From a virus, in the IMG/VR virus record IMGVR_UViG_3300043425_000825, positions 1 through 44,995 of that record: a DNA stretch of 44,995 bases; one strand, given 5' to 3'. The notes under the pieces were generated by a model that worked only from the letters and a program-made list of their open reading frames with translations, searched no databases and was not told the DNA's origin. The first letter of the stretch is position 1. The number at the start of each line of letters is the position of its first letter. Below are positions 1 through 41,213 of this stretch, piece after piece. A program made the position numbers and the translations under genes.

Positions 1-1782
1 ATCTATAACATCAAATACTTCATCTTCTAATTCTTCAATAATTTCATATTCGGCTCCTTCAATATCCATTTTAACTAAAGATACTCTATCAATATTATTC
101 TGTTTAATAAATGTTTTTAAAGATATTGCTGGAACTACTATTTCTTCTAATGAATTTGAATGTATTTCTAAATGCTCTTTAGAAAGACTTCCTATAGTAG
201 TATTTGTAGGATCTATATAAAATTTAAGATCTTCATCTTTAGTATAAACTGCTTTATCTAGTATTTCTATATCTAAATTTTGAGTAACACTTTTTAAGTT
301 AATTAAAGAATCTTGATTTGGTTCAAATGCATAAATCTTTTTAACTCCTTTATTTGCACATAAAAGAGAAAATAATCCACTATTAGCTCCAATATCAAAA
401 ACTGTATCTAAATTATCTAATTCATAACAGTCGTATTTTTTAGATAAAAACATTTCATTGTAATTATTAAATAGACAATCAAATGGATTATTTAAATTTA
501 ATGCGACATCTTTTTTTACAGTTTCTTTTATAAATAAATCTTTAGAATATAAAAGTTCATTTTCTAAATTATAAAATTCAATTACTAAAGTACCAACTAC
601 TGGATCTCTTACGAAGTCTAAAGATTGCACAGGAATTGGTACTATCCACCACGCAGAGCCATTAACAAACTCAGCATTAAACCAATACATTGGTGCATTA
701 GAATCTTTTTCTTTTATTGATACTTTATATTTACTAGGCTCGTGTTTTTTATATGTAATATGAATTTTATTCTCTGATGGATTTATTGATATATCAAATA
801 TTTCGTCTATTTTATTTTCTTGCATTCCTAATTTATTTAATATCAATTTTATATTTTGTTCTTTATTATTAAAATCTAGATAATTTATATTACTAAATTT
901 ATTAAAATAATTTAAATAAACATCTAGATTAAAAATAAGTGATGGTGTTTTCCAACTAATAGCCTCTCTAATTACCAGAGGCATTGTTTCTTTATCAGTG
1001 GCATGGCCTCTAGAAGTAAATAAAAATAGATCAGCCATTTCAAAAAAAGTATCTACATCATCTCGTTCTCCCCACCATTTACAATTACTAGGAAATTCTT
1101 TCATTAAAGGTTGCCAATAATCTTGAAAATTATCTGCTTGATTTCCTATAAAGTGAAATTGAATAGGATAGTCTTTAAGCATTCTAGCATACTCAATAAC
1201 TTCTGCTTGATTCTTTCTAGGAGTAAATAATCCTACGTTTATAACATGTTTTTTATTAGGATCTAAACCTAATTTATTTAATAATTCTTGTCTAGTATAA
1301 GTTTTAGTTTTATATTCTATGGGATATTCTACTAATTGTATTGGAATATTTAATGGTTTATAAGTCTCTACTTGATATTGACTTACCATCATAAATTTGT
1401 CTGGAAAGTATATTTTTCTATTTATGTCAAAACTTGAATCGTGAGATGTTTCAATTATTTTATATGTTCTATTTATTGAATAAAATTTATCTGCAATATC
1501 ACTAGGCATAAACATTTCAGGGATTTCTTGAAGGTGTATTATGTCTGGATTATATTCTTCAATCAATTTAAATAAATGGTGTTTATCTTGATCTAGTGTT
1601 ACTAATCTTTTACCTAAAATATTTTTAATTTTATTTCTTTGAACTACAAGATTACCTCCTGTAATGTCATCCCACTCTAAACAATATATAGAATGTTTTT
1701 TATGTAAAGCCTCTATTTGTTTATAAAGATATTGAGGCATTCCACCTGTAGAAAGGTGAGGAGCAATAAAAAATATCGTCAT
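1..1782 (-). CDS. Glycosyltransferase-FkbM methyltransferase fusion (partial, C-terminus beyond window)
   Basis: An open frame starts at the ATG at 1782 and runs 594 codons without a stop to the left edge, so the C-terminus is missing. Residues 1-300 read as a GT-B/GT4-type glycosyltransferase. The N-terminus has a hydrophobic strand and STGGMP loop, NVGLFTPRKN (182-191) matches the second Rossmann domain, and E265-x7-E273 is the family's donor-binding motif. Residues 330-430 form a β-rich linker domain I do not recognise. Residues 455-594 match FkbM-type SAM-dependent methyltransferases: FDIGANSG (463-470) is SAM motif I, AFEPN (485-489) holds the acidic ribose ligand, and KMDIEGAEYE (571-580) is the FkbM signature. 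It lies downstream of the fibre genes on the same strand. I infer that it adds and methylates a glycan on a virion fibre or host surface polymer. The domain calls are firm; the target is unknown. Confidence 0.85.
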   Translation of the reverse strand, partial: MTIFFIAPHLSTGGMPQYLYKQIEALHKKHSIYCLEWDDITGGNLVVQRNKIKNILGKRLVTLDQDKHHLFKLIEEYNPDIIHLQEIPEMFMPSDIADKFYSINRTYKIIETSHDSSFDINRKIYFPDKFMMVSQYQVETYKPLNIPIQLVEYPIEYKTKTYTRQELLNKLGLDPNKKHVINVGLFTPRKNQAEVIEYARMLKDYPIQFHFIGNQADNFQDYWQPLMKEFPSNCKWWGERDDVDTFFEMADLFLFTSRGHATDKETMPLVIREAISWKTPSLIFNLDVYLNYFNKFSNINYLDFNNKEQNIKLILNKLGMQENKIDEIFDISINPSENKIHITYKKHEPSKYKVSIKEKDSNAPMYWFNAEFVNGSAWWIVPIPVQSLDFVRDPVVGTLVIEFYNLENELLYSKDLFIKETVKKDVALNLNNPFDCLFNNYNEMFLSKKYDCYELDNLDTVFDIGANSGLFSLLCANKGVKKIYAFEPNQDSLINLKSVTQNLDIEILDKAVYTKDEDLKFYIDPTNTTIGSLSKEHLEIHSNSLEEIVVPAISLKTFIKQNNIDRVSLVKMDIEGAEYEIIEELEDEVFDVID

Positions 1783-3410: not shown

Positions 3411-6371
3411 TTATGCTTTTGTATAAGTTATATGTATAGAAAGCAATTCTGCTGTTGCTGCTAATGTATCACCAGCTGCTGCAGGGTTTCTATACGCTCT
3501 AAATTGAACAAAATTTCCAGCTGCTGGAGTACCACCAATAGTAATTGCTGATGTTGCTGCTGATATATTAACATCATCATTAGCTTGGTTTGCGTCTGTT
3601 ACTTCTTGTGCTGTGCCAAATGCTTGATCTAAAGCATCGCCATCAGCGTAAGCCCGCGCTTGTAGTCCCCAAACTACAGAGTTTGTTGATGCATTACCTG
3701 CAACCCAATAAAATTTTGCAGTAATAGTTCCACCATTATAATCTGATGGCATTGGTATTGCCCAGTTAGCATATAATGTTGTAGCACCATCTGCAAATCC
3801 TAAATAATAAAAATTAACTTGGTTAGTTGTTGTTTGTGTTGTTTGCGGAGGTTGACAACCGTTAGTTAATGAAGGCCATCCACCTGCTGCTGTAAGTATT
3901 ATTGTACCAGTAGTTGATCCACCACCTCCTGGTGTAGCAATTGTTAAAATATTACCTGATGAATCAAATGCAAGTACACCAGCTGCAGTACCAGTAAATG
4001 ATGTGGTTGTAGTATACTGAGGTAGTTGTATTTGACCAGTATTTTTTAGTATTAATGTGTTTGTACTTGGTGCAAGTCCAGTAGAAGTTCCATATCCAAT
4101 CACAAATTGACTTGTCGCATAATAAGTGAAATATGGATTACTACTTGCAAATCCATGTCCTGTAAAAAATCCTCCAGAAGTTCTTTCTAATGTTATACCA
4201 GCTGCATCTCCACCAGTAACTACTTGTAATTTACCAGAAGTAGGACTTGTAGTATTTATACCTAAGTTACCAGCATCTGATAGAGTCATTCTTTTTTGAG
4301 TACCTTGAGTATAGAAAGTTAAACCCGATGCTTGGTTAGTTCTGATTTGGAGTTCTCCAGCCGCATATAAAATAGAGTTGGCATTACTTGCTGCTCCAAA
4401 ATATAAACTGCCTCCTGTAGTTCCATCTCCTATAATAGCAATATTACCACTTCCTGATATATCTAGTGTTGCTCTTGGAGAAGTTACAACTCCTACACCT
4501 ACATTACCTCTAAGTACAGTCCGTGTGATACTATTATTACCTAAAGTAGCAGTATTTGAACCGTGTCCAACATTATTAGATCCAATTACTATTTCATTTT
4601 GTCCATTACTTTGAGAAGCATATGCAGCATATCCTACATATACTGAACTATCTGCTGTTGTATTTTCTGTAACTCCACCTCCTAGATATCCTCCTGCACC
4701 ATTTCCTATTGCTACATTTTGAGTTCCATCTGTATTTCCTACTAAAGCACTATTTCCTATAGCTGTATTAAATGAACCTCCTGTATTAGCAAATAAAGCG
4801 CCGTCACCAAGAGCAACATTTTCTGCTCCATTAGTATTATTTCTCATTGCTGTAGCTCCTACAGCCGTATTAGAATATCCTGTAGTACTTCCTGATAAAG
4901 CAAACCATCCTATTGCGGTATTTCTATCAAGAGATCCCGCTGATCTGGCTAATGCTGCAAGACCAAAAGCAGTATTTGAAGTAGTCGTATCATTTCCTGT
5001 ACCTATAGTAAGGCCTGCTACTTGTATATTTCCACTACTTGTAATATTACCAGTTACTGTTAAAGTAGTTCCATTAAATGTTAAATTACTTTCTACAGTT
5101 GCATTTGGAGCAGTACCATTAAGAGTTATTACACCATTATCTGTAGTTCCAGTTAAAGTTAGCGTGCCGCTAGTTCCACTCGATCCAGAAGAACCTGATG
5201 ATCCTGTATTACCAGAAGTTCCTGAACTACCTGATGAACCTGAACTACCAGAAGATCCAGGAGAGCCAGTTTGACCTGATGAACCTGAACTACCAGAAGT
5301 TCCTGAACTACCAGGTGAACCAGTTTGACCTGATGAGCCTGAACTACCAGAAGTTCCAGAAGTACCTGGAGCTCCTGTTTGTCCAGATGAACCTGATGAA
5401 CCTGAACTACCTGAAGATCCATTAGCGCCTGAAGTACCTGAGCTGCCACTAGATCCAGATGATCCATTTGCTCCAGAGGTACCAGAAGATCCTGAATTTC
5501 CAGATGAGCCAGAAGAACCGCTAGATCCACTTGAACCGTTAGCACCACTAGTACCTGATGAGCCACTAGATCCATTTGCTCCGGAAGTTCCTGAGGATCC
5601 TGATGACCCTCGAGTACCTGATGTACCAGATGAGCCAGAAGAACCGCTTGATCCGCTAGAGCCGTTTGCTCCACTTGTTCCACTAGATCCTGCAGTACCG
5701 CTAGATCCTGCGCTTCCAGACGAGCCAGAAGATCCATTTGCGCCTGATGTACCTGCGCTACCAGATGAACCACTTGATCCATTAGCCCCACTTGTTCCAG
5801 AAGAGCCGGCACTACCTGAAGATCCTGAGCTACCAGATGAACCTGACGACCCATTGGCTCCACTTGTTCCAGAAGATCCTGATGATCCACTAGAACCGGA
5901 AGTGCCAGATGAACCAGCTGCAGCTACCCAAGTGCTACCATTATATCTATAAATGTTATTATCTGAAGTATTGTAATATATTTGACCTGCAGCAGTACCT
6001 GTTGGATTTGATGCAGCTACGGGTATTCTTAATGATCCTGTTAAATTAGTACTACCTGTTACAGTAAAACTACCACTAATATCTAATGTAGCATTTAATA
6101 AAGTTTCTTTACCTACACCTACTGTTGATTGAGAAACAAATAAAGCTCTTTGACCAAATTGACCAATACGTACTGTATTGTCAGAAAAAGCTTCTATAAT
6201 AGGAAGGCCCGCTGCTGTATTGACTGAGAATAACGAACCAGAAAGAGAGTCATCAATCTGGAATAAACGACCAGATGTTCCATCTACTGAAAATACTTCT
6301 GACCCAGAAGAATTAATGTTGGCTGATCCTGAGACCAGCAGGCCGTTTTTTACTTTAAATTCGTTTGGCAT
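3411..6371 (-). CDS. Tail fibre with Gly-x-y collagen-like stalk and YadA-like head repeats
   Basis: This is a 986-aa fibre. Residues 1-146 are an N-terminal β-rich attachment region rich in SGS and ending in the phage-fibre element GQIYYNTSDNNIYRYNGSTW. Residues about 147-402 are Gly-x-y triplets (GSS, GTS, GAN and a few GQT/GAP) that predict a collagen-like trimeric stalk with very little proline. Residues about 470-600 contain NTAIG/NTAVG/NVAIG repeats of the trimeric autotransporter (YadA) head type. The C-terminal 160 residues form a separate β-rich domain ending ITYTKA, probably the receptor-binding tip. An ATATTTAT motif lies about 35 nt upstream. The YNTSDNNIYRYNGSTW module also occurs in the 3160-aa fibre, so the two genes are modular relatives. 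Confidence 0.85.
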   Translation of the reverse strand: MPNEFKVKNGLLVSGSANINSSGSEVFSVDGTSGRLFQIDDSLSGSLFSVNTAAGLPIIEAFSDNTVRIGQFGQRALFVSQSTVGVGKETLLNATLDISGSFTVTGSTNLTGSLRIPVAASNPTGTAAGQIYYNTSDNNIYRYNGSTWVAAAGSSGTSGSSGSSGSSGTSGANGSSGSSGSSGSSGSAGSSGTSGANGSSGSSGSAGTSGANGSSGSSGSAGSSGTAGSSGTSGANGSSGSSGSSGSSGTSGTRGSSGSSGTSGANGSSGSSGTSGANGSSGSSGSSGSSGNSGSSGTSGANGSSGSSGSSGTSGANGSSGSSGSSGSSGQTGAPGTSGTSGSSGSSGQTGSPGSSGTSGSSGSSGQTGSPGSSGSSGSSGSSGTSGNTGSSGSSGSSGTSGTLTLTGTTDNGVITLNGTAPNATVESNLTFNGTTLTVTGNITSSGNIQVAGLTIGTGNDTTTSNTAFGLAALARSAGSLDRNTAIGWFALSGSTTGYSNTAVGATAMRNNTNGAENVALGDGALFANTGGSFNTAIGNSALVGNTDGTQNVAIGNGAGGYLGGGVTENTTADSSVYVGYAAYASQSNGQNEIVIGSNNVGHGSNTATLGNNSITRTVLRGNVGVGVVTSPRATLDISGSGNIAIIGDGTTGGSLYFGAASNANSILYAAGELQIRTNQASGLTFYTQGTQKRMTLSDAGNLGINTTSPTSGKLQVVTGGDAAGITLERTSGGFFTGHGFASSNPYFTYYATSQFVIGYGTSTGLAPSTNTLILKNTGQIQLPQYTTTTSFTGTAAGVLAFDSSGNILTIATPGGGGSTTGTIILTAAGGWPSLTNGCQPPQTTQTTTNQVNFYYLGFADGATTLYANWAIPMPSDYNGGTITAKFYWVAGNASTNSVVWGLQARAYADGDALDQAFGTAQEVTDANQANDDVNISAATSAITIGGTPAAGNFVQFRAYRNPAAAGDTLAATAELLSIHITYTKA
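5165..5930 (-). repeat. Gly-Ser-Ser/Gly-Thr-Ser collagen-like repeat block
   Basis: About 85 consecutive Gly-x-y triplets are encoded here, mostly GSS, GTS and GAN. Synonymous codons are mixed, so the protein repeat is far more regular than the DNA repeat. The opposite strand has few stops across the block and gives long false reading frames rich in Pro, Asp, Glu and Val. Confidence 0.9.
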
Positions 6372-6675: not shown

Positions 6676-7347
6676 TTATAAATTAAATCGTAATTTTTGT
6701 GCGTTATAATTTTGTAGGATTTCTATAGCCGAGAGAGCTTTATTATATATTTTAGTAGATGCTATTTTTCCGCTCCAAGCATAACCAGCACCTGAACTCC
6801 ATTGAGCCAATACTATATTACCGGTTCCTGATGATCCAGGGGCGTGAGTGTAACTAGCATCTAATAATCCATTTACGTATATTATAGATGAAGAACCATT
6901 CCAAGTCCAAGCCGTATGATACCAGGTGTTTGCAACAACAACGGTATTGCTACTATCAGTAGTAAAAAGCCAACTACTACCATTTCCTAAATGAATATTA
7001 AATTTATTTGTTGTTGTTATTTCGTATCTTAAAGATGTATTTTGATCTAAAAATATATTTTGTGTACCATCTACAACAGCTGTATTTAAAAAAAGTTCTA
7101 TAGTAAAATTACTTAAAGAAGGTATTGAATTTGTTACTGTACAATTATCATCTGCTCCATCAAATACAATTATACCTCCATTAGTAGAACTAAAAGTAGG
7201 TCCATTAGTTAAAGTACCATTATTTCCATTTCCAGACATATCTCTCCAAGTAGTTCCACTACCAGGATAAGAATTTTTATCGGCTGCATCTAATGCTAAT
7301 ACTAATCCGTTTGTTACTATTTTACCAAATGCAAATTGTGTTGCCAT
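6676..7347 (-). CDS. LamG-like (concanavalin-fold) virion protein, copy 3
   Basis: This 223-aa protein is a single LamG/Laminin_G_3-type β-sandwich. It starts with the IVTNGLVLALDAADKNSYPG element, followed by TTWRDMSGNGNNGTL, FDGADD, FTIELF (strand) and WYHTAWTWNGSSSIIYVNG, all typical of the fold. It ends in KIYNKALSAIEILQNYNAQK. The family binds carbohydrates or glycoproteins, so I infer a virion adhesin that recognises host surface sugar. It is the last of three tandem paralogues sharing N- and C-terminal ends. Its start is 4 nt from the stop of the small gene at 7352-7501. Confidence 0.8.
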   Translation of the reverse strand: MATQFAFGKIVTNGLVLALDAADKNSYPGSGTTWRDMSGNGNNGTLTNGPTFSSTNGGIIVFDGADDNCTVTNSIPSLSNFTIELFLNTAVVDGTQNIFLDQNTSLRYEITTTNKFNIHLGNGSSWLFTTDSSNTVVVANTWYHTAWTWNGSSSIIYVNGLLDASYTHAPGSSGTGNIVLAQWSSGAGYAWSGKIASTKIYNKALSAIEILQNYNAQKLRFNL

Positions 7348-7351
7348 AACT

Positions 7352-7501
7352 TTATAGATTATTTATCCAATTTTGACATTCTTCATAAGTAACTCCCCAA
7401 TATACTTGATTATTATTTTCATCAACTACATAAAAAGGAGGAAGTGTTTCTACTGATCCACTTATAAAAATATTCATATTTTGTTCTATATTATAAGCCA
7501 T
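7352..7501 (-). CDS. Small protein, 49 aa, between LamG genes
   Basis: An ATG at 7501 opens a 49-codon frame ending in TAA at 7352. It overlaps the end of the upstream LamG-like gene by 11 nt and stops 4 nt before the next LamG-like start, so it fills the gap exactly as phage genes do. The protein has an acidic, aromatic C-terminus (NQVYWGVTYEECQNWINNL) and a central FISGSVETLPPFYVVDE stretch. I do not recognise it. It could be a dedicated assembly factor or a small virion component of the LamG adhesins. Confidence 0.65.
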   Translation of the reverse strand: MAYNIEQNMNIFISGSVETLPPFYVVDENNNQVYWGVTYEECQNWINNL

Positions 7502-8138
7502 ATCTTGATTTATTAGCATTATAATTGTAAATTATTTCATTGTCTGATAATTCTCTATTATAAAAATAGATTTCTTTAACTTTACTAGTACCTGCTGCTT
7601 CTGGACCATATAATCCTATTGCTGCTGTTGCTGATGTAGTAGGACCTATATTTCCTGTAGTTCCACTTCTTCCTCCTGTTTTAGCTCCATTTTTCCACAT
7701 TATTCCTCCTCCACTAGATGTATTAAATTGTAAAACTATATTTGCTATTTCTCCACTAACCATCCAAGCACCACTGCCTGCTATACCCGTCCAACCATTT
7801 CCTGTAGTATACCCATACCAAACTAATAATCCATCTTGATTATTACCTAAATAATTTTCAAAATGATATAATATAAAAGAAGCATTAACATTATAAGCTG
7901 TATTCCATTTTGCAACAGGATGGTTAGCATAACCCGTTCCAGTGCCTGTTTTTTCTAACCATAATTGAACTGTTATTTGAGAAGCATTATTTGCCCATGA
8001 TGGATCTCCAGGTGAAGTTCCTCCATTAACTAAACTATACCATGTAGCTCCTGTTCCTAAATATGAATTTTTGTCGATGCCAGAGTAGGCATCTACTAAT
8101 CCACTTTCAATTATATTTGGTCCACCTGATATTCCCAT
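7491..8138 (-). CDS. LamG-like virion protein, copy 2 (divergent)
   Basis: This 215-aa protein has the same ends as its two neighbours, an N-terminal SGLVDAYSGIDKNSYLGTG element and a C-terminal NYNANKSRYGL. The inner sequence differs: the segment normally carrying GNGNNGTL and FDGxDD is missing or replaced by GGTSPGDPSWANNAS. The middle keeps β-sandwich features (ITVQLWLEK, WMVSGEIANIVLQF, KVKEIYFYNRELSDNEI). It is probably a carbohydrate-binding adhesin whose binding face has been exchanged while its attachment ends were kept. It overlaps the 49-aa gene by 11 nt and starts 2 nt after the stop of copy 1. Confidence 0.75.
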   Translation of the reverse strand: MGISGGPNIIESGLVDAYSGIDKNSYLGTGATWYSLVNGGTSPGDPSWANNASQITVQLWLEKTGTGTGYANHPVAKWNTAYNVNASFILYHFENYLGNNQDGLLVWYGYTTGNGWTGIAGSGAWMVSGEIANIVLQFNTSSGGGIMWKNGAKTGGRSGTTGNIGPTTSATAAIGLYGPEAAGTSKVKEIYFYNRELSDNEIIYNYNANKSRYGL

Positions 8139-8140
8139 AG

Positions 8141-8809
8141 TTATAAGCCGAAGCGTGATTTTTGTGCGTTATAGTTTTGCAGTACTTGAGAAACAGATAG
8201 TGATTGATTATATACTCTCATTAAAAATGTTGAAAAATTTGAACAATATATAATATCAGATCCTAGTCTAGCCATAGTAGCCCATGTAAATTGTCCTGAT
8301 CTAGACCCAGTATTTATTAAAATCCCATTAACATATAAAGAAACTAAATTAGATGAGTCTCTTGTAACAACTGTATGAAAAATTGTATTTAAAGGAAAAT
8401 TATAAGATATAGATAAACTATTAACACCACCTGCTTGATTCCACATAAGAAAGCTAGTAGAATTAAAAATCATCATACTATTTCCTCCAGAACTACCTAG
8501 CCAATGAACTCTTGATAGTGTTTGACTAGCAAAGTTTGGTATTGATAGTATAATTTCAGCAGAGAATGGACTTGCATCTGCAAAATCTATTGCTGTACCA
8601 AAATTTAAAAAATCATTTGTTCCATCAAATGTAATATTCCCTCCATTTACGGAACTAAAAGCTGGGCTATTGTTTAGACTTGAGTTATTTCTGCTAGTTG
8701 ATAAATCAGTCCAAGTGGTTCCACTACCAGGATAAGAATTCCTATCAGCAGCATCTAGATTTAATACTAATCCACTAGTAACAATTCTTGGTCCATTTCC
8801 AAATGCCAT
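8141..8809 (-). CDS. LamG-like virion protein, copy 1
   Basis: This 222-aa protein contains one LamG-like β-sandwich. SGLVLNLDAADRNSYPGSGT opens the domain. It is followed by TWTDLSTSRNNSSL, NITFDGTNDFLNF, FSAEIILSI and a YVNGILINTG strand, and closes with YNQSLSVSQVLQNYNAQK. Its start is 12 nt from the stop of the giant fibre gene, so it is probably co-transcribed. The fold suggests glycan binding; virion location is inferred from the context. Copy 3 is its closest relative here, with nearly the same first 50 residues. Confidence 0.8.
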   Translation of the reverse strand: MAFGNGPRIVTSGLVLNLDAADRNSYPGSGTTWTDLSTSRNNSSLNNSPAFSSVNGGNITFDGTNDFLNFGTAIDFADASPFSAEIILSIPNFASQTLSRVHWLGSSGGNSMMIFNSTSFLMWNQAGGVNSLSISYNFPLNTIFHTVVTRDSSNLVSLYVNGILINTGSRSGQFTWATMARLGSDIIYCSNFSTFLMRVYNQSLSVSQVLQNYNAQKSRFGL

Positions 8810-8820
8810 ACACCTTTATT

Positions 8821-11800
8821 TTATAATAAGTTAGCAATTGATTTTACTGTCCAAACACCAGATGATGTAAATTGAAGTTGCACATTTGCTCCTGATATAC
8901 CTACTGCAAATAAAGCAGAGTTGGTATTTCCTATATCAGTAGTTGTTACTTCAGTAAATCTTACGGTTGTTCCATTCCAAACACTCATTACTTGACCTGA
9001 TCTTGCATTTGATCCAGAAGCTATTGTATAGTTATAGAATGCAGATGTTGCAGAACCTGTGTTTATTGATGATACTACTACTGCACCAGTTGTTGTAATA
9101 GATGATGTAGAATTAAATTCTGCTATACCTAAATCTAATGGTCCACCATTTATTAATACAGATCCTGTAAATTGGTGAGTATTAGTAGTCAGCGTACCAA
9201 ATCTAGTTGATCCAGTTATAAAGCTTACACTTGATGTTACTGTTTGAACACTAAGTGTCTGAGCAGTTATTGTACCTGTTGAAGTTACATTACCAGTTAC
9301 TGTTAATGTGCTACCATCAAATGTTAAGTTTGCTTCTGCGTTTGCAGTATTAGTCGTACCTAGAGATGTTAATACCCTATTGTCAACAGGGTTAGTAATT
9401 GTATTGAATCCTGTACCTGAAGTTCCTGAGCTGCCAGATGATCCGGAAGATCCACTACTACCATTTGCACCTGAAGTTCCACTTGATCCTGATGTACCTG
9501 AGCTACCTGAAGTACCTGATGAACCAGAACTACCATTTGCTCCAGACGTGCCTGATGATCCTGAGCTACCTGATGAACCATTTGCCCCACTAGTGCCTGA
9601 TGAACCGCTTGATCCATTTGCACCTGAAGTTCCACTTGATCCAGATGAGCCAGAGCTACCATTAGCTCCAGATGTACCTGATGAACCGCTTGATCCATTT
9701 GCACCTGAAGTTCCACTTGATCCAGATGAGCCAGAGCTACCATTAGCTCCAGATGTACCTGATGAACCGCTAGATCCGTTAGCACCTGAAGTTCCTGATG
9801 AACCGGAAGAACCGCTAGAACCAGATGATCCATTTGCTCCAGATGTGCCTGATGAACCCGATGTACCTGATGAACCACTTGAACCATTAGCTCCTGATGT
9901 ACCTGATGAACCAGAAGATCCCCGAGTACCTGAAGTTCCTGAACTACCACTAGTACCATTTGCTCCAGATGTGCCTGATGATCCTGATGTACCGGAACTA
10001 CCATTTGCACCTGATGTGCCTGAACTACCAGAACTACCATTAGCTCCACTAGTTCCACTTGATCCTGATGTACCTGATGATCCTGATGTACCTGATGAAC
10101 CACTTGAACCATTAGCTCCACTAGTTCCTGATGATCCAGATGTGCCTGAAGATCCAGAAGTTCCAGATGACCCAGAAGTTCCGCTTGAACCAGCAGCCGC
10201 TAACCAAGTAGTACCATTATATCTGTAGATATTATTGTCTGTACTATTATAATATATTTGACCTGCTGATGTACCAACTGGATTAGTTGTAGATACGGGT
10301 ATTCTTAAAGATCCTGTTATAGAAACAGATCCTGTGAATTGATGCGTATTAGTTAATAAAGATCCATTAATACTTGAGCCAGTAACATATTCTCTAGATG
10401 AAGTTACTTCTTGTACATTTAAAGTTTGCGCTATAATATTTCCAACTACAGTTAAAGTAGTTCCATCAAAAGTTAAATTAGCTTCAGCATTTGCTGTATT
10501 AGTCGTACCTAGAGATGTAAGTATTCTATTATCTGCTGGGTTAGTAATAGTATTAAAACCAGTACCTGAAGTTCCTGAGCTACCTGATGATCCACTAGAA
10601 CCAGAAGAACCACTTACTCCACTTGTTCCACTAGATCCTGCAGTACCGCTAGATCCACTAGTTCCTGAAGAGCCACTTGAACCATTTGCGCCAGATGTAC
10701 CTGAGCTACCTGAAGTACCTGATGAACCAGAACTACCATTTGCACCTGATGTACCAGAAGAACCACTTGAGCCGCTTGATCCATTTGCACCTGAAGTTCC
10801 ACTTGATCCTGACGTACCGCTAGATCCAGAAGTTCCAGATGAGCCAGAAGATCCATTTGCTCCACTTGTTCCAGAAGAACCAGATGTACCTGATGAACCA
10901 CTTGAACCATTAGCTCCACTAGTTCCACTTGTACCAGATGAACCAGCGCCAGATAACCAAGTAGATCCATTATAACGATAAATGTTATCGTCAGTCGTAT
11001 TATAATATACTTGACCTTCTTCTGTACCAGTAGGAGTTGAAGCGTATACTGGGAATCTTAGTGAGCCTGAAATAATTGTTGAACCAGATATTGTTAATCC
11101 ATTTGTATATCTACCTGAACCAGATACGTCAAAGCTAAATTGAGGATTAGGTTGATTAATACCTATTCTACCATTAGCAGAGCCAGAGAATGGATTCGCA
11201 GTATATGTTGTATAGTTACTATTTACTCCTTGCCAAGCAGATCCTGTAGCAAATATTAAACCTCCTATATTGATGCTATCTTGAGCATTTGTTGGTAATG
11301 AAATATTTGTACCTATTATAATGTTGTTTCTTCCTAGAGTAGAGTTTCTCCCAGAGAATGAACCTATAATTATAGAATTAGAACCACTAGTTAAAGAATT
11401 GCCAGTGCCATTTCCTATTATAATTGATGAAATACTATTATTAGACAAACTAAATGCATCAAACCCAATAGCAATACTATAGCTACCTGTTTTTGCAGAA
11501 TACGCTGTAGAATTTCCTATAAATGTAGATCTAGTTGCTCCTTTAACTCCGTATGCAGCACTCTCTCCTATAGCAACTATTTCAGAAGAATTTACTAATC
11601 CATTTCCTGAAAGCCATCCAATTAAAACGGATTCTTGGCTATTAATTGTATTTAGTCCTGCATATGCGCCTACTACTACATTATAAAAATTATTGTCTGA
11701 ATTTTTTCCAGCACTAGCTCCTATTAAAACTGCATCTGATGAAGCTGTACTATTAGCTGCTACTGAATCTCCTATTAACACATTATCTCCTGAATTAGAA

Positions 11801-14800
11801 AATACTACAATAGATCCACTATGTATATTATTTCCTATAGCAACACTTCCATAATTATAAACATCTGTTTTATATGATGTTCCAACAGTAGAATATATAG
11901 TACTACCACTAACAGCTAAAGGATAAGATGAACTAATAGCATTTCTTGCCCAACTAGCAGTTCCGAATAACGAACTTGTTATAGAAGTAGCAGAAATATT
12001 ATCTACATTAGTAATGTCATTTCCATCAAGAGATAAATTTCCTTGCATTGCTCTAGTACCATCAACTAACAAATATTGTTGATGATCATCTGCATCTAAC
12101 CCTAATAAGTTTCCATGTAAAGTAACTACGCCTGTTCTAGAAGGCGATGCAAAACCAAGCCTAGGTCTTTCATCAATTATAGATTGAATACTAGCACTAT
12201 CTGGGGTTACTACTATGGAAGCAAATAAAGCAAATTGCTCTGTTACAAAGCTTGGAGGAGTCGGTAAAGAACCTGCTTCAGCAGCTTCAACATTATCATA
12301 TAAATCTTGACCATAAACAAGGAAATACCTTGTTGTAGGAAGACCTATCATATATAATGAATGCTTAGTATATTTTCCAGATGGTATTGATTGCAAAGTA
12401 CCAAAACTAGCACTATCGTATAAAGTATTACTTGCAGTAGTTTGACTTGCAACTCTAGTAAATCCAGATCCACCAACACCTGTACCAGCTGATCCGCTTC
12501 TATAAAAAGCATCAAAAGTTATAGGAGACGCACCTGTAGTACTTATTCTATGTTCGGAGAAGAAATATATTGCAGAAGTAACGTCTAAACTTCTAGATAC
12601 AATTCCTTGAGTAGTTGTTGCTCCTGATTGGAATATAGGTCCTAATGCATCTCTAAATAATCTGTCTACATAGTTGCTATAGTGGTGAGCATCTAAAGGT
12701 GTTCTATCTATATAAACTATAGAAGTTGAATCAGTAATAACTCTTCCTAAAGGAACGTTAAATCTAGAGTTAGGTTCAGTTGCAGAAGAGGTTAATATAC
12801 CAGAACCATTATAATAAACATATCTATCAGATGAAGTAGGCATTGTTATTTGCCTAGATTCTGTAGTTGTTCCTCTAGTATTAATTTTAAATAAATTATG
12901 ATTAGCATACCCACCTTGACTCATTACGTATCCTACAGACTCTGCTACTTGAAGAGTTAATGCACTAGCAGTACTTAAAGCACCGCCATCAATAATACCC
13001 ATCGTACTAGCAAAAGATATTAGATCACCAATTTCTGTTTTAACAGCAGACGGTTCTCTAACCCAATCAAGTCCTCCATAAAGTACGATTGATGCAGTAT
13101 TAATTCCAGCACCACCGCTAGGAATTAAAGTGATATTGCCTCTAGGATTAGCAAATATACTTGCAGAAATAGAACTAGAAACAGTTAAAGATCCTGTAAT
13201 TATTACGTTTCCAGGAATAGTAACATTAGTTCCATCATCAGTAATTTGAGAGTCTCCGATATGTTCTCCGCTCTCTCCTGAATATCCTTTTGTAAGTCTA
13301 TTTAAAGTTATTTGAGTTTCATTACCTAAATTATTATAGGTTTCAGGACCCATAATTCCAATAGAACTAGTCGGTGATGATCCAGCAGGTTGTTGATGGA
13401 TCATTATCCATCTATCTTTAGTGGAATCAAATAACCAAGATCCTGATCTTTGAGGGCTTGATCCTGAATCAATAACAGCTAATCCACCATAACGTACAGA
13501 TGGAGTATTAGAGTTTACAGTAATTAAATTAGTTCCAATATTAAGTGTAGATTCACTTACATATGTAATAGAAGCAGATCCTAAAACAGTTAAATTTTGT
13601 AATATAGTTAAACTTCCTGATACTGTAGTAATGCTACCAGAAACTGTTAATACTGACGAAGCTGTTGCGGCATTTGTAGTACCATCTGATACTAAAACTC
13701 TATATAATGCTGGATTATTTATTGTATTAAATCCTGTTCCACTAGAGCCAGATGATCCAGAACTACCTGAAGAACCTGACGATCCACTTGAACCAGAAGA
13801 TCCGTTTGCTCCACTAGTTCCACTAGATCCTGACGAACCTGTGGAACCAGAACTACCAGAAGTACCAGTAGAACCTGAGCTACCGCTAGTACCTGTTGAT
13901 CCACTAGAACCACTTGATCCAGATGATCCAGCACTACCTGATGAACCAGATGAACCGTTTGCTCCGCTTGTACCAGAACTACCGGAAGATCCAGAACTAC
14001 CACTAGTACCTGTTGATCCGCTTGATCCAGATGAGCCTGCAGTACCACTAGTACCAGATGAACCTGAGCTACCAGATGAACCATTAGCTCCTGATGTTCC
14101 ACTAGATCCGCTTGTGCCAGTAGATCCACTTGAGCCTGAAGATCCAGAACTACCGCTAGATCCTGCTGTACCAGAAGTACCACCACCAACAATTAATGAT
14201 GCTTCAAACCAAGTTCCGTTTCCTGAAGAATTTATATTTTGAGATGTAGGATTTCCTGTATAAGCAGTAACTTCTACATAATCTGTTGAACCATTAAAAT
14301 AAATTATTGCATCTATTTCTTGTGCATAACCTGAGCCAGATAGAATTTGAGTTTGATGTATGGCAATTTGAGTTGTTCCATTTTTTCTAAATTGGATATT
14401 GCTTTGGTTATTAGTTACAGAACCGGCATCCCACCAAACTTGGGCATTAGTTATATAATAACCTGCAACAGTTGGTTGAATTTTATTAGAAGTTAACCAA
14501 TTATTAGGATCAAAATCATCGCCAAATGTTACAACAGTATCAACACCATTTGATATAGTTTGCGAACCTCCTTGTTTAGTACCTCTAACAATATAGTTAG
14601 ATGCTACAAGTCCTGTTGGTGAAGTACCTGATGAACCTGCAGTACCTGATGAACCACTAGAACCAGAAGTACCAGAGTTACCAGACGTACCACTAGATCC
14701 ACTCGAGCCATTAGCTCCGCTAGTTCCTGCAGATCCACTTGAACCTGATGTCCCTGAACTTCCAGAAGATCCAGAAGAACCATTAGCACCACTAGTTCCT

Positions 14801-17800
14801 GCTGATCCAGAACTACCTGATGAACCACTAACACCTGATGATCCAGATGATCCGCTTGATCCAGATGAGCCTGAGGAACCGCTTACTCCTGACGTACCTG
14901 AACTACCGGAAGATCCAGAACTACCATTTGCTCCTGATGTACCTGATGTACCACTAGTTGCTGTAGTAAATGATGTTCCGTTTATAGTTAATGATCCAGT
15001 AATATTTACAGAGCCTGTAAATTGATGAGTATTAGATAATTCACTACCAAATACTGTTGAGCCTGTAATATATTCTTGAGAAGATGTAATATTCTGTACA
15101 ATAAGTGTTTGCGCTGTTATTGTTCCAGAACTTACAATACTTCCAGTTATACTAAGAGTATTATTAGAAAAAGATAAATTAGTTGATGCAGTTGCTGCAT
15201 TTGTAGTGCCGTCTGATAATATTATTCTATTAGCTCCAGGATTATTGATGGTATTGAATCCTGTACCTGAAGTTCCTGAAGTACCTGATGATCCAGATGA
15301 TCCGCTTGAACCATTAGCTCCTGATGTTCCACTACTGCCAGAAGTACCAGTTGATCCACTACTACCGCTTGTACCTGTTGAACCAGATGTGCCGCTAGAA
15401 CCAGATGATCCATTTGCTCCGCTTGTTCCAGAAGATCCAGAACTACCTGCAGATCCTGAGCTACCAGATGTTCCACTAGATCCGTTTGCTCCAGATGTCC
15501 CAGAACTTCCAGATGAACCACTTGAACCAGAAGTACCATTTGAACCATCGGCACCGGAAGTACCTGACGATCCTGAACTACCTGAAGTTCCTGATTCTCC
15601 ACTTGTGCCACTAGATCCTGAGCTGCCAGATGATCCACTAGAACCAGATAAACCTGAAGTACCTGATGAACCACTAGTTCCACTCTCTCCGCTTGTACCT
15701 GAAGACCCTGAACTACCTGATGTACCAGAAACTCCACTACTTCCAGAAGACCCTGATGTTCCCGCACTTCCTGATGAGCCGCTAGTACCGCTCTCTCCAC
15801 TAGTTCCTGAGCTTCCTGATGTTCCAGAAGTACCCGATTCTCCAGAACTTCCACTAGATCCACTTGTTCCTGTAGAACCAGATGAACCAGAACTACCGCT
15901 TGAACCAGATGATCCAGTTGTACCAGAACTACCTGATGATCCAGAGCTGCCAGATGAACCATTAGCTCCCGATGTTCCACTTGTACCTGAAGTCGCAGCA
16001 GTAAATGATGAACCATTTATAGTTAATGATCCAGTAATATTTACAGAACCTGTAAATTGATGAGTATTTGAAAGTTGAGATCCAAAAACTGTTGATCCAG
16101 TTACATATTCAACACTAGAAGTTATTGTTTGAACAATTAAAGTTTGTGCAGTAATTGTATTTTGGATTAATGCATTTGATGCAGTTATTGCTCCATTAAT
16201 AGAAATATCTCCTAAATTATTTATTGATCCTGTAACTGATAAAATATTATTATCATAAGTTAAATTAGACGATGCAGTCGCTGCATTTGTTGTACCATCA
16301 GACAATATTATTCTGCCTTGACCAGCATTGCTAATAGTATTAAATCCTGTTCCTGAAGATCCTGCTGTACCGCTTGAGCCTGTAGAACCAGATGAGCCAC
16401 TAGATCCGCTAGTGCCTGCAGATCCACTTGAACCTGCCGATCCTGAGCTGCCAGATGATCCGCTTTCCCCACTAGTGCCAGATGAACCAGAACTACCCGA
16501 AGTGCCAGATGTTCCAGAGCTTCCGCTAGATCCAGTTGAGCCAGAACTTCCAGATGTTCCTGATTCTCCACTAGTTCCTGAACTACCTGATGATCCAGAG
16601 CTACCAGACGTTCCCGACTCTCCACTAGTGCCAGATGATCCAGAGGAACCTGTACTACCAGATGATCCTGTAGAACCAGAAGATCCCGATGTACCTGTAG
16701 ACCCAGAAGATCCTGATGTACCAGAACTTCCAGATGAACCTGAGGATCCAGATGTTCCACTTTCCCCACTAGTACCAGAAGATCCTGATGTACCTGTACT
16801 TCCAGAACTTCCTGATGATCCACTAGATCCAGAAGTACCTGAGCTACCGCTTGAACCTGAACTACCAGATGATCCAGCAGTTCCAGAAGTTCCTGATGTA
16901 GCTGCGGTGAAAGACGATCCATTTATACTTAATGATCCAGTAATATTTACTGAACCAGTAAACTCATGAGTATTAGATAATTGAGAGCCGAATATAGTTG
17001 ACCCAGTTACATATTCAATTGATGATGTAATTGTTTGTGCTACTATAGTTTGTGCAGTTAATGTTCCTCTAACTAAAAAATTATCTGCAGAAGATGCTGT
17101 ATCCGCTAATGTTGCAGATGCTGCTTTATTAGTATATTGAAATAAACCAGTAGATGGATTTACAGCAACTAAAGAGCCTGATAATGAATTATTTTGAGCA
17201 ATAACAGGATTGTAAATACTACCACTTATATTAATTGATCCAGTTAATTCATGTTGATTATTTGGATCTAATCTAAATTTTCTATTAGATATACTATCTT
17301 CTCCTCCAACAAAAAATTCAAGAGGGTAATTAGAAGCATTACCTATATATAAATAATTTCCTGTAGAATATAAATAGGCATCACTTCCTAATCCAACCCC
17401 TCCAGTAACATTATAATTAGTGCTGTTAATACCTAAATTAATAAAGTTAGTAGTTTCAGTAGCATTGTCATTTTCAGCTACTATATCTGAAGAAGCTTCA
17501 CTTCCTGTTGATCTATTTTGTAAACTAAGTTGAGAGTAATTATCAACATCACCTTTTATTTGAACTAAATTATATGTTTCTGTACCTTGTATTCCTTCTA
17601 TCCAAAGAGAAGCAGGATTAAATGAATCATATTGACTTGAGTTAATACTAATAGTACCTTGATTATGAATCCATAATCTAGCATTTTCAGTAGTATCAAA
17701 ACCACCATTAAAGAAAATAATTTGTTTACCTGAAACAGCATTACCTATTAGTAAATTTTCACCTGTAGAATATAAATAAGCATCTAAAGCACTACCAATA

Positions 17801-18303
17801 TATTGATTAGCATTATATCCAGAACCATTAATACCTAAATTAACATAATTAGCTTCTTCGTTTCCATTATCAGCAGTCGCTACAATATCTGAAGACGCAC
17901 TAGGTCCTGAATTAAAATTTTTTATATTTAATTGAACATAACCATCTACATCAGCATGACCTGATATTAAATTATACGAATTTGTTAAAGAGTTTACTAA
18001 AAAAGTTTCAATAGCTTCAGGATGTAATGATCCTGTTGCGTTTATAGCAGTAAAAGATCCTGATTGATAAATCGTACTAGAAACTAACGCTTCTGATCCA
18101 GAAAATACAGATAAATAAAATGAAGATCCACTAATAAAACCTGAACCTATAGTAACTATTTCTTCACCTGCAGAACCAGATCTTTTCATAAACGCTTTAC
18201 CATCATAGGTATTAAGCGCAATTTCACCAAGTTGTAAAGAAGCTGTATCAGGTATTCTACCTGGTACTGCGCTTCTACGCAGTTTCAGATACTGGTTTGA
18301 CAT
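8821..18303 (-). CDS. Giant modular tail fibre, 3160 aa
   Basis: A single uninterrupted frame encodes 3160 residues. The N-terminus (LGEIALNTYDGKAFMK at about 26-41) matches the attachment region of T4-like marine phage fibres. Six Gly-x-y blocks, mostly GSS and GTS, lie near residues 468-653, 771-1013, 1114-1226, 1371-1521, 2451-2581 and 2703-2964. They are separated by a repeated β-rich module containing ITSSxEYVTGSTxFGSxLSN and HQFTGSVNITGSL. Residues about 1231-1371 are a C1q/TNF-like jelly roll (VAGYYITNAQVWWD, QIAIHQTQ). Residues about 2140-2350 carry YadA-head-like repeats (VLIGxSA, SIAIGFDA, NIIIGTN). The protein is probably a long trimeric adhesin. The stop-free length supports a real gene rather than an assembly error. 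Confidence 0.85.
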   Translation of the reverse strand: MSNQYLKLRRSAVPGRIPDTASLQLGEIALNTYDGKAFMKRSGSAGEEIVTIGSGFISGSSFYLSVFSGSEALVSSTIYQSGSFTAINATGSLHPEAIETFLVNSLTNSYNLISGHADVDGYVQLNIKNFNSGPSASSDIVATADNGNEEANYVNLGINGSGYNANQYIGSALDAYLYSTGENLLIGNAVSGKQIIFFNGGFDTTENARLWIHNQGTISINSSQYDSFNPASLWIEGIQGTETYNLVQIKGDVDNYSQLSLQNRSTGSEASSDIVAENDNATETTNFINLGINSTNYNVTGGVGLGSDAYLYSTGNYLYIGNASNYPLEFFVGGEDSISNRKFRLDPNNQHELTGSINISGSIYNPVIAQNNSLSGSLVAVNPSTGLFQYTNKAASATLADTASSADNFLVRGTLTAQTIVAQTITSSIEYVTGSTIFGSQLSNTHEFTGSVNITGSLSINGSSFTAATSGTSGTAGSSGSSGSSGSSGTSGSSGSSGSSGSTGTSGSSGTSGESGTSGSSGSSGSSGTSGSSGSTGTSGSSGSTGSSGSTGSSGSSGTSGESGTSGSSGSSGSSGTSGESGTSGSSGSTGSSGSSGTSGTSGSSGSSGTSGESGSSGSSGSAGSSGSAGTSGSSGSSGSTGSSGTAGSSGTGFNTISNAGQGRIILSDGTTNAATASSNLTYDNNILSVTGSINNLGDISINGAITASNALIQNTITAQTLIVQTITSSVEYVTGSTVFGSQLSNTHQFTGSVNITGSLTINGSSFTAATSGTSGTSGANGSSGSSGSSGSSGTTGSSGSSGSSGSSGSTGTSGSSGSSGESGTSGTSGSSGTSGESGTSGSSGSAGTSGSSGSSGVSGTSGSSGSSGTSGESGTSGSSGTSGLSGSSGSSGSSGSSGTSGESGTSGSSGSSGTSGADGSNGTSGSSGSSGSSGTSGANGSSGTSGSSGSAGSSGSSGTSGANGSSGSSGTSGSTGTSGSSGSTGTSGSSGTSGANGSSGSSGSSGTSGTSGTGFNTINNPGANRIILSDGTTNAATASTNLSFSNNTLSITGSIVSSGTITAQTLIVQNITSSQEYITGSTVFGSELSNTHQFTGSVNITGSLTINGTSFTTATSGTSGTSGANGSSGSSGSSGTSGVSGSSGSSGSSGSSGSSGVSGSSGSSGSAGTSGANGSSGSSGSSGTSGSSGSAGTSGANGSSGSSGTSGNSGTSGSSGSSGTAGSSGTSPTGLVASNYIVRGTKQGGSQTISNGVDTVVTFGDDFDPNNWLTSNKIQPTVAGYYITNAQVWWDAGSVTNNQSNIQFRKNGTTQIAIHQTQILSGSGYAQEIDAIIYFNGSTDYVEVTAYTGNPTSQNINSSGNGTWFEASLIVGGGTSGTAGSSGSSGSSGSSGSTGTSGSSGTSGANGSSGSSGSSGTSGTAGSSGSSGSTGTSGSSGSSGSSGTSGANGSSGSSGSAGSSGSSGSSGSTGTSGSSGSTGTSGSSGSTGSSGSSGTSGANGSSGSSGSSGSSGSSGSSGSSGTGFNTINNPALYRVLVSDGTTNAATASSVLTVSGSITTVSGSLTILQNLTVLGSASITYVSESTLNIGTNLITVNSNTPSVRYGGLAVIDSGSSPQRSGSWLFDSTKDRWIMIHQQPAGSSPTSSIGIMGPETYNNLGNETQITLNRLTKGYSGESGEHIGDSQITDDGTNVTIPGNVIITGSLTVSSSISASIFANPRGNITLIPSGGAGINTASIVLYGGLDWVREPSAVKTEIGDLISFASTMGIIDGGALSTASALTLQVAESVGYVMSQGGYANHNLFKINTRGTTTESRQITMPTSSDRYVYYNGSGILTSSATEPNSRFNVPLGRVITDSTSIVYIDRTPLDAHHYSNYVDRLFRDALGPIFQSGATTTQGIVSRSLDVTSAIYFFSEHRISTTGASPITFDAFYRSGSAGTGVGGSGFTRVASQTTASNTLYDSASFGTLQSIPSGKYTKHSLYMIGLPTTRYFLVYGQDLYDNVEAAEAGSLPTPPSFVTEQFALFASIVVTPDSASIQSIIDERPRLGFASPSRTGVVTLHGNLLGLDADDHQQYLLVDGTRAMQGNLSLDGNDITNVDNISATSITSSLFGTASWARNAISSSYPLAVSGSTIYSTVGTSYKTDVYNYGSVAIGNNIHSGSIVVFSNSGDNVLIGDSVAANSTASSDAVLIGASAGKNSDNNFYNVVVGAYAGLNTINSQESVLIGWLSGNGLVNSSEIVAIGESAAYGVKGATRSTFIGNSTAYSAKTGSYSIAIGFDAFSLSNNSISSIIIGNGTGNSLTSGSNSIIIGSFSGRNSTLGRNNIIIGTNISLPTNAQDSINIGGLIFATGSAWQGVNSNYTTYTANPFSGSANGRIGINQPNPQFSFDVSGSGRYTNGLTISGSTIISGSLRFPVYASTPTGTEEGQVYYNTTDDNIYRYNGSTWLSGAGSSGTSGTSGANGSSGSSGTSGSSGTSGANGSSGSSGTSGSSGTSGSSGTSGANGSSGSSGSSGTSGANGSSGSSGTSGSSGTSGANGSSGSSGTSGSSGTAGSSGTSGVSGSSGSSGSSGSSGTSGTGFNTITNPADNRILTSLGTTNTANAEANLTFDGTTLTVVGNIIAQTLNVQEVTSSREYVTGSSINGSLLTNTHQFTGSVSITGSLRIPVSTTNPVGTSAGQIYYNSTDNNIYRYNGTTWLAAAGSSGTSGSSGTSGSSGTSGSSGTSGANGSSGSSGTSGSSGTSGSSGTSGANGSSGSSGTSGANGSSGTSGSSGTSGANGTSGSSGTSGTRGSSGSSGTSGANGSSGSSGTSGSSGTSGANGSSGSSGSSGSSGTSGANGSSGSSGTSGANGSSGSSGSSGTSGANGSSGSSGTSGANGSSGSSGSSGTSGANGSSGSSGTSGANGSSGSSGSSGTSGANGSSGSSGTSGSSGTSGSSGTSGANGSSGSSGSSGSSGTSGTGFNTITNPVDNRVLTSLGTTNTANAEANLTFDGSTLTVTGNVTSTGTITAQTLSVQTVTSSVSFITGSTRFGTLTTNTHQFTGSVLINGGPLDLGIAEFNSTSSITTTGAVVVSSINTGSATSAFYNYTIASGSNARSGQVMSVWNGTTVRFTEVTTTDIGNTNSALFAVGISGANVQLQFTSSGVWTVKSIANLL
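9411..10195 (-). repeat. Gly-x-y collagen-like repeat block F of giant fibre
   Basis: This is the longest triplet block, about 260 residues of GSS, GTS, GAN and one GTR. It contains an exact 81-bp tandem duplication at 9596-9771. Gly codons keep strict spacing of three residues. Confidence 0.9.
9596..9771 (-). repeat. Exact 81-bp tandem repeat inside fibre gene
   Basis: The sequence beginning at 9596 (CCTGATGAACCGCTTGATCC) is repeated exactly from 9677 with a period of 81 nt. A third partial copy of 14 nt begins at 9758, after which the sequence diverges. The unit encodes 27 residues, or nine Gly-x-y triplets, and keeps frame. Neighbouring triplets use mixed codons, so this exact copy points to a recent duplication. 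Confidence 0.9.
10560..10950 (-). repeat. Gly-x-y collagen-like repeat block E of giant fibre
   Basis: About 130 residues of GSS/GTS/GAN triplets with strict glycine spacing lie between the YadA-like region and the next β-rich module. Confidence 0.85.
13740..14190 (-). repeat. Gly-x-y collagen-like repeat block D of giant fibre
   Basis: About 150 residues of GSS/GTS/GST triplets directly follow the C1q-like domain. Domain order is therefore stalk, jelly roll, stalk. Confidence 0.85.
14625..14960 (-). repeat. Gly-x-y collagen-like repeat block C of giant fibre
   Basis: About 110 residues of GSS/GTS/GAN triplets directly precede the C1q-like domain. Confidence 0.85.
15265..15990 (-). repeat. 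Gly-x-y collagen-like repeat block B of giant fibre
   Basis: About 240 residues of triplets include GES, GVS, GLS and GAD variants besides GSS and GTS. This block has more acidic and varied triplets than blocks C to F. Confidence 0.85.
16345..16900 (-). repeat. Gly-x-y collagen-like repeat block A of giant fibre
   Basis: About 185 residues of triplets, dominated by GSS, GTS, GST and GES, form the first stalk segment after the N-terminal β-rich region. Confidence 0.85.
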
Positions 18304-40319: not shown

Positions 40320-41213
40320 CTATTTTATTCTAAATTTACTTAATATATCTTTTGTTTTATTAATATCTTTATGCATTATTGCAATCCCGCCTAATGCTTT
40401 CCAAGGAGCAAGATTCGGCCAATAATCATCTATTAGCATAGAGTTCTTAGGATCAGCTGTCATCATAGAATGCTTATCTCCTGTTTGAGCAAATAGAATT
40501 TTTTTAGGTTGAGGATTTAAATTATTTTCTATCCACATTTTTTTTCCTTCTTTAGCAAACTCAAATTTACTAGGACTAGTTAAAATATACGGTTTATATT
40601 TTCCTATAATAGACCATAATTCTTTACCTCCAGGCATCCAATTCATTTTGGCCCAGAAGTCAATACCAGCTTCATTTACTGCAACTTCAAATGCTTTAGA
40701 ACCTTTTTCTGTATAATATTCTCTAGGTTGAACTCCATAAAAGTGTTCAAATCTTTCATCAAAATCACATAGAACTCCATCCATATCACAATAGATTTGA
40801 ATACCTCCAGTTTGTTCTACTTCATATATTTGTTTTAAGCTAGGTAGAAGAGATTCGTAAATAAGATCATTACTCTTACCATAATCTCTCATCATCATAC
40901 CAGCTAGTGCATTTGCTTGATTCTCTATATTAGAACCGGTTTTGCCTGCATCTGCATATAATTTACCTAATTCATTTTGTTTATGATGAACTAATTCATG
41001 ACATAAAGTTCTAAGTATGTCTGCTAGATTTCTATTACCTATATAAACATCTAAATGTTTTTGATTTGGATCATATTGTCCAAAACTTCTTTTTTCAGTA
41101 GCCCATTCACGATCATTTAAAAACCTAATTGTAGGAAGTTTATCTATATCAAGTTTATTTTTTACAAACTGTATAAAATCCTCTATTATTTCTTGTCTTT
41201 GTTCTGGTGTCAT
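40320..41213 (-). CDS. Metallopeptidase-HAD phosphatase fusion, 297 aa
   Basis: Residues 1-112 hold a zincin-like domain. CHELVHHKQN (71-80) is an HExxH motif (His72, Glu73, His76), and IENQAN (96-101) offers a third ligand Glu97, as in small metallopeptidases. Residues 135-297 are a HAD hydrolase of the 5'(3')-deoxyribonucleotidase type: YCDMDGVLCDFD (141-152) has nucleophile Asp143 and Asp145, a YILTSP stretch follows as motif II, and MLIDDYWPNL as the acidic motif. The fusion is unusual. It overlaps the nucleotidyltransferase stop by 4 nt and shares a unit with the P-loop kinase. A combined role in nucleotide or RNA-end processing is inferred. Confidence 0.8.
   Translation of the reverse strand: MTPEQRQEIIEDFIQFVKNKLDIDKLPTIRFLNDREWATEKRSFGQYDPNQKHLDVYIGNRNLADILRTLCHELVHHKQNELGKLYADAGKTGSNIENQANALAGMMMRDYGKSNDLIYESLLPSLKQIYEVEQTGGIQIYCDMDGVLCDFDERFEHFYGVQPREYYTEKGSKAFEVAVNEAGIDFWAKMNWMPGGKELWSIIGKYKPYILTSPSKFEFAKEGKKMWIENNLNPQPKKILFAQTGDKHSMMTADPKNSMLIDDYWPNLAPWKALGGIAIMHKDINKTKDILSKFRIK

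Follow-up and report, generated by a model that had tools for sequence, protein, structure and literature searches.

The DNA considered here is a 44,995-base IMG/VR virus record, analysed over its whole length and called the window below, which carries late genes in T4-like order on the minus strand: terminase, gp20-type protein, protease, capsid, PhoH, head completion and fibres, as compared with the annotated Flavobacterium phage immuto. The nearest terminases from isolates are those of Flavobacterium phages, at 56%. At the end of the record lies a gene that joins a family 4 glycosyltransferase (GT4) to an FkbM-type methyltransferase, and its GT4 protein and the homologues of that protein are designated GT4A. 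Upstream of it in the direction of transcription are two fibre genes with long runs of Gly-x-y triplets. The features concerned are as follows:

1..1782, minus strand: GT4A-linker-FkbM fusion gene, 594 aa, ATG start, cut by the record end
823..1782, minus strand: GT4 domain, residues 1-320; the constant part, with 58-90% identity across 12 phages, while the modules after it vary
964..990, minus strand: E-x7-E motif, E265 to E273, invariant in 49 homologues
469..813, minus strand: predicted beta-sandwich linker of 7 strands, residues 324-438
1..405, minus strand: FkbM-type methyltransferase domain, from residue 460, C-terminal part missing
3411..6371, minus strand: tail fibre, 986 aa, one run of 84 Gly-x-y triplets, positions X/Y 81% Ser/Thr; candidate acceptor
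8821..18303, minus strand: tail fibre, 3160 aa, six Gly-x-y runs, 354 triplets, positions X/Y 87% Ser/Thr, no proline; candidate acceptor

An earlier note, made from the sequence alone, had read one frame as a GT4 glycosyltransferase with E265/E273, a beta-rich linker and an FkbM domain, and the domain matches, motifs and predicted 7-stranded sandwich bear this out. In the 594-aa protein, Pfam recognises Glycos_transf_1 (PF00534) at residues 164-314 (3.5e-14, above the cut-off) and Methyltransf_21/FkbM (PF05050) at residues 463-584 (1.1e-15; 58.6 bits against a cut-off of 22.7), and NCBIfam recognises TIGR01444 fkbM_fam (5.8e-26; 91.6 bits against 37.7). The FkbM part has a GxG-type loop for binding S-adenosylmethionine, both FDIGANSG and KMDIEGAEYE are found in the protein, and it can be regarded as a putative sugar O-methyltransferase. 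The spacing of E265 and E273 is an exact E-x7-E, with no variation in 49 non-redundant homologues. The predicted model of the GT4 half (pLDDT 76.7) has a GT-B fold, and its top PDB matches are the GT4 enzymes PimB', BshA and HepE at E values of 1e-8 to 1e-9, yet with TM-scores of merely ~0.4-0.65. The linker is modelled as a 7-stranded sandwich with a mean pLDDT of 89.6, for which the fold search gave weak Ig/Fn3-like matches, none under E 1e-3, and no confident structural relative; a sequence search gave no solved structure near the fusion. One point has to be corrected: the protein is incomplete because the record stops inside the gene, leaving the FkbM domain ~45 residues short, and an exact-match search of IMG/VR gave no contig extending the window beyond its end.

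The position of the fusion downstream of two fibres with hundreds of Gly-Ser-Ser and Gly-Thr-Ser triplets, also part of the earlier note, was confirmed by counting Gly-x-y runs of six or more. The shorter fibre has 47 GSS and 15 GTS among its 84 triplets, and the longer one has 183 GSS and 97 GTS among 354, in runs of 37-86 triplets. Together the two fibres hold 438 triplets in runs, with ~85% Ser/Thr at X/Y and almost no proline.

A scan of IMG/VR with the window protein gave 17 homologues, full or partial, at 50-99% identity. Complete GT4A relatives span 650-1258 aa, often with extra enzyme domains, and GT4 and FkbM can be followed by GT2, a rhamnosyl-O-methyltransferase-like domain or a second methyltransferase. 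Among 49 non-redundant GT4A proteins, GT4 was matched in 49, FkbM in 30, Methyltransf_24 in 10, GT2 in 4 and RMNT_CmcI in 3. The phage locus L008 (L and G numbers are our labels for loci and genomes), in which GT4A-FkbM is complete at 651 aa, is 89% identical to the window in GT4 and 24% in the linker, and it is 90% identical to L002 in the downstream enzyme described below. On the sequences compared, the GT4 part is constant and the remaining modules are exchanged among relatives. Exchange within one cassette is seen between L008:978-2933 and L002:7356-11132, where GT4A and the downstream enzyme are common to both and the linker/FkbM module types differ.

In each of the 15 relatives whose loci are not truncated, the GT4A gene is followed, 0-6 kb downstream, by a gene for a ~693-aa protein whose N-terminal half is another GT4 (GT4B) and whose C-terminal half scores 280-332 bits (cut-off 200) with NCBIfam TIGR04414 hepto_Aah_TibC, the autotransporter heptosyltransferase family that we abbreviate as BAHT. 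TibC and Aah are autotransporter protein O-heptosyltransferases that modify Ser, and TibC is an iron-containing dodecamer (PMC4358343). Compared with the solved TibC structures, the partner gives a profile match at E 4.3e-75 over residues 27-385, nearly the whole chain. The catalytic Asp and the four iron-ligand Cys, defined as in PMC4358343, are kept in 52/52 phage domains, 10/10 divergent bacterial domains and 11/11 canonical ones. The linkage also holds from the other side: of 39 non-redundant BAHT loci that reach 9 kb or more upstream, 38 have GT4A ahead of BAHT on the same strand, and in 15 the two are direct neighbours. At least 600 IMG/VR stretches match the partner protein, and the BAHT part occurs in 4 of 50,697 GenBank phage records, namely three uncultured huge phages and Microcystis phage Mel-JY01. 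No GT4B-BAHT fusion was found in bacteria in a scan with only two short patterns, and BAHT in Bacteroidota, the presumed host phylum, was confined to 1 of 395 genomes, that of the query itself, on a phage-like contig. Two further relationships were considered and dropped: the linker as a homologue of the TibC N-terminal beta-barrel (profile comparison probability <1%), and GT4A and GT4B as recent duplicates (profile comparison of shallow alignments, no significant match).

Whether homologues of the fusion co-occur with Gly-x-y fibres across related phages, a question raised in the earlier note, can now be answered in the affirmative. Pfam Collagen is matched in 15/17 GT4A records, the two exceptions being fragments of 31 and 25 kb, and in 24/30 BAHT records of at least 40 kb, compared with 7/24 control records picked by related tail sheath, of which 1/24 has BAHT; the controls are few and include some redundancy, with L111 and L125 looking like one phage. 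Of the 6 BAHT-free collagen controls for which sequence was available, 3 carry GPQ or GDQ triplets rather than Ser-rich ones. Near relatives that lack the cassette (L100, L120) and the isolate immuto have no triplet fibres, and carry other fibres directly before the sheath. In Mel-JY01, a 176-triplet fibre comes first, an annotated structural protein next, and after it a single polypeptide that combines GT4 and BAHT; in a 735-kb phage GT4A and GT4B-BAHT adjoin a triplet protein.

A tree of 76 BAHT domains separates into two clades with support of 97/91. Clade I holds 11 canonical bacterial enzymes and 16 phage clusters; clade II holds 36 phage clusters, among them L002, the closest relative of the window virus, and all 10 divergent bacterial enzymes. 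Ser/Thr-rich runs of at least 20 triplets occur in the fetched locus (loci of at least 15 kb) in 27/29 clade II clusters and 2/16 clade I clusters (p 8e-8), figures that count clusters and not independent gains, with shared ancestry uncorrected. For both clade II clusters outside this pattern, L003 and L043, collagen is matched in another part of the record. Clade I loci such as L067 and L093-L097 have the two-gene frame with no Ser/Thr triplet fibre nearby. A shorter second BAHT-like protein (~280 aa) directly follows GT4B-BAHT in some clade I phages (L067:12117-12962, L073, L076, L077, L078, L080).

The bacterial enzymes, sampled from Methylococcales, other Gammaproteobacteria and Burkholderiales, divide in the same way. 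Canonical BAHTs (480-660 bits) mostly adjoin autotransporter-like genes and triplet runs are found beside 0/10, whereas divergent BAHTs (~300 bits, clade II) adjoin a (GTS)n, (GTA)n or (GSS)n protein in 9/10 (p 1e-4 against canonical). These neighbours are small exported or lipoprotein-like proteins; the clade II members come from two separate lineages, the neighbour proteins share little beyond the repeat, and gene order and orientation vary among the pairs. Because their neighbours are triplet proteins and not autotransporters, we call clade II enzymes BAHT homologues rather than autotransporter heptosyltransferases. In a genome-wide search for a pattern of six triplets, the BAHT neighbour was the sole locus among the matches listed in G074, G375 and G486, and in G075 both triplet loci flank BAHT, one on either side, while 8/9 genomes with canonical BAHT lack such loci. 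The exception, G892, has very long (GTS)n repeats elsewhere (G892:C4 and C18) and breaks the two-class split. Pairs of a (GTS/GTA/GSS)n protein and a divergent BAHT are found in L180 (6920-7783, and 7824-9122 for the BAHT, of Methylobacter luteus), L192, L193-L195, L198, L203 and L205-L207; the bacteria include Methylobacter, a Polaromonas metagenome-assembled genome (MAG) and others. In L181 (Rickettsiaceae MAG), L184 (Bacteroidetes MAG) and L186, clade II BAHT lies beside fibre-, sheath- or other phage-like genes, and these loci look like phage sequence.

We therefore give a probability of roughly three in four to the reading that the window gene opens a two-gene phage cassette that O-glycosylates the phage's own Gly-Ser/Thr-triplet fibres; the second half would be a GT4 domain fused to a BAHT of the TibC/Aah kind, encoded in this virus beyond the end of the record. 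In the proposed scheme, (i) BAHT would act in the cytoplasm ahead of virion assembly, linking the first sugar to Ser or Thr residues in the triplets (TibC uses heptose from ADP-heptose); (ii) both GT4 domains, with GT2 or other enzymes coded between them, would extend the glycan; and (iii) FkbM, and in relatives rhamnosyl-O-methyltransferase-like domains, would O-methylate and so cap it. Since only the inner modules are swapped between close relatives, the outer genes being constant, the glycan would differ from phage to phage. The constant TibC-type pairing, together with the position of clade II beside triplet proteins, speaks for a protein as the acceptor, in particular for the triplets. 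Genes for sugar transfer and methylation lie beside tail-fibre genes of long Gly-Ser/Thr repeats in hundreds of sequences of uncultured phages, whose fibres are probably decorated with methylated sugars. The earlier note had proposed that the phage modifies its own fibre stalks: the glycosylation part of that proposal is strengthened by the BAHT pairing and the clade II association, while the methyl group, the sugar and its linkage, like the acceptor residues, the order of steps and any effect on the fibre, are elements that we infer. Its further suggestions, a stabilising effect of the sugar on a proline-poor triple helix or a masking of the fibre, are supported by none of the evidence. With less assurance, we also favour a broader view in which clade II is a separate BAHT branch with a Gly-Ser/Thr-x triplet substrate, acting in bacteria on small exported (GTS)n proteins and in phages on long proline-free collagen-like fibres, where the modular glycan would be methylated and the inner enzymes exchanged between close relatives.

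Several observations, besides the uncorrected ancestry in the cluster counts, weigh against the self-glycosylation reading. The window sequence stops before the position that BAHT takes in relatives, and the nearest relative that carries one is 83% identical. Both genes are present, with no Ser/Thr triplets in the locus, in 13-14 of the 16 clade I phages, so the cassette can have other acceptors; conversely, the records of L124 and L171 (46- and 29-kb fragments) include Ser/Thr triplet fibres but lack BAHT, so fibres of this kind may occur in its absence. An FkbM match is absent from 19/49 GT4A proteins, which makes methylation a common and not a constant part of the cassette. Finally, several of the bacterial neighbour proteins are Thr-rich, whereas TibC accepts Ser and not Thr (PMC4358343), a preference more in keeping with the phage triplets, rich in Ser, than with these bacterial ones.

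The alternative that survives best, though we think it unlikely, is that the cassette glycosylates another part of the virion, such as beta-helical fibre segments, LamG-type proteins or the capsid, with the triplets as bystanders. The substrate of TibC is a beta-helix (PMC4358343), clade I phages carry the cassette mostly with no triplets nearby, and glycans of mycobacteriophages have been reported on capsid and tail tube, according to a citation in PMC12619734; what this alternative leaves unaccounted for is that clade II is linked to triplets not only in phages but also in two separate bacterial lineages, where the neighbour proteins have hardly anything in common apart from the repeat.

Slightly less probable still is that the cassette alters a host surface glycan (lipopolysaccharide or capsule) late in infection, blocking adsorption of other phages or of the phage's own progeny. 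Fibre-region glycosyltransferases of pelagimyophages were interpreted in this way by their authors (PMC7029224), FkbM, GT2 and GT4 are common in surface-polysaccharide clusters, one cassette includes a PseC-like aminotransferase, and in some clade I loci the cassette lies away from the fibres. On the other hand, tested members of the constant partner's family transfer sugar to protein Ser, the partner's clade adjoins triplet proteins in bacteria, the cassette proteins that were scanned included none recognised as lipid-carrier, flippase or polymerase, and the cassette genes sit inside the virion-structure cluster. Glycosylation of the phage's own fibre stalks is well supported genetically, much above host-surface modification, because clade II BAHT adjoins triplet proteins in phages and bacteria alike. 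A role in DNA glycosylation was set aside in view of the virion genes around the cassette and of a BAHT partner whose substrate is protein.

That triplet fibres and cassette are merely two habits of one aquatic T4-like lineage with no joint function is very improbable: most loci do come from related T4-like phages, and the sheath-chosen controls differ in habitat and relatedness too, but close sheath relatives differ (L003, L006, L013 and L108 have BAHT and Ser/Thr triplets, L100, L111, L112 and L120 neither), the bacterial pairs vary in gene order and orientation, and the 735-kb phage has the cassette with adjacent triplets.

Between the two triplet fibres of the window lie three genes for proteins with a LamG/ConA-like lectin fold:

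6676..7347, minus strand: LamG/ConA-like lectin-fold protein
7491..8138, minus strand: LamG/ConA-like lectin-fold protein, weak Pfam match under the cut-off
8141..8809, minus strand: LamG/ConA-like lectin-fold protein

The immuto homologues of this trio (6676-8809) are annotated as structural, and the proteins could bind a glycan. When a heptose-nucleotide gene was sought in the window, the open reading frame at 41210..41800 gave no Pfam match; the neighbouring stretch 41797-42585 has a Zeta-toxin/CPT-like kinase fold (PF06414, 1.2e-10) and adjoins a small open reading frame with a nucleotidyltransferase-like HxGH stretch. In L003 (5729-8839), five consecutive 2-oxoglutarate-Fe(II) oxygenase-like genes directly precede the glycosylation cassette, where fibre-protein hydroxylation is possible.

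Proline-free Gly-Ser-Ser/Gly-Thr-Ser fibres recur in aquatic T4-like phages, and the cassette offers a testable answer to how such fibres may keep their stiffness or integrity; the roles considered for the glycan are stiffness, protease resistance, keeping fibres apart and escape from receptors or predators. It also offers a reading of fibre-region phage glycosyltransferases other than the usual one of host lipopolysaccharide, and would assign a class of substrates to a branch of enzymes that currently bears the label autotransporter heptosyltransferase. If modules do switch the glycan, the system would be a phage counterpart of antigenic variation. The isolate Mel-JY01 and the simple bacterial two-gene pairs (Methylobacter) are systems in which these proposals can be tested.

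The kinds of enzyme involved and virus-encoded fusions for glycan methylation are already known; our search of the literature, mainly openly accessible papers, gave no report presenting this combination of parts, tying a BAHT branch to Gly-Ser/Thr triplets or describing phage use of one, and nothing joining phages with BAHT or FkbM fusions. The closest systems include TibC/Aah (TIGR04414; PMC4358343), with which the phage enzymes share the sequence family, the catalytic Asp, the iron-finger Cys4 and a gene position next to a repetitive surface protein; they differ in the N-terminal GT4 fusion and the pairing with GT4A-FkbM, and clade II adjoins Gly-Ser/Thr triplet proteins instead of autotransporters. 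SgtA-BclA3 of Clostridioides difficile and BclA of Bacillus are similar in having a dedicated glycosyltransferase gene beside a collagen-like gene and an O-linked sugar on triplet Thr (PMC7157674, PMC8968730). The gene sgtA lies immediately upstream of bclA3, and SgtA puts N-acetylglucosamine (GlcNAc) on Thr of the collagen-like repeat (PMC7157674), a precedent in which gene adjacency has predicted enzyme and substrate before; the BclA glycan contains an O-methyl sugar, according to PMC6222408. These systems differ in their proline-containing GPT or GTT triplets, in a transferase with a single glycosyltransferase domain that uses UDP-GlcNAc, and in belonging to bacterial spores. Among phages, those of mycobacteria decorate virion proteins by means of their own glycosyltransferases (Freeman 2023, as cited in PMC12619734), the target in that cited account being the C-termini of capsid and tail tube proteins and not fibres. 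Mimivirus L230, a collagen lysyl hydroxylase-glucosyltransferase, likewise works on low-proline collagen-like proteins of the virus that encodes it (PMC9614988), but it acts on hydroxylysine and is of eukaryotic type. The chlorovirus PBCV-1 proteins A064R and A061L, compared by description of their architecture, resemble the cassette as virus-coded multi-domain glycosyltransferase and methyltransferase proteins devoted to the glycan of the virus's own surface protein; A064R, a GT-GT-methyltransferase, finishes the glycan of the capsid protein (PMC9614988), and differs in that it acts on an N-glycan of the capsid, in an algal host, with two rhamnosyltransferases and a methyltransferase.
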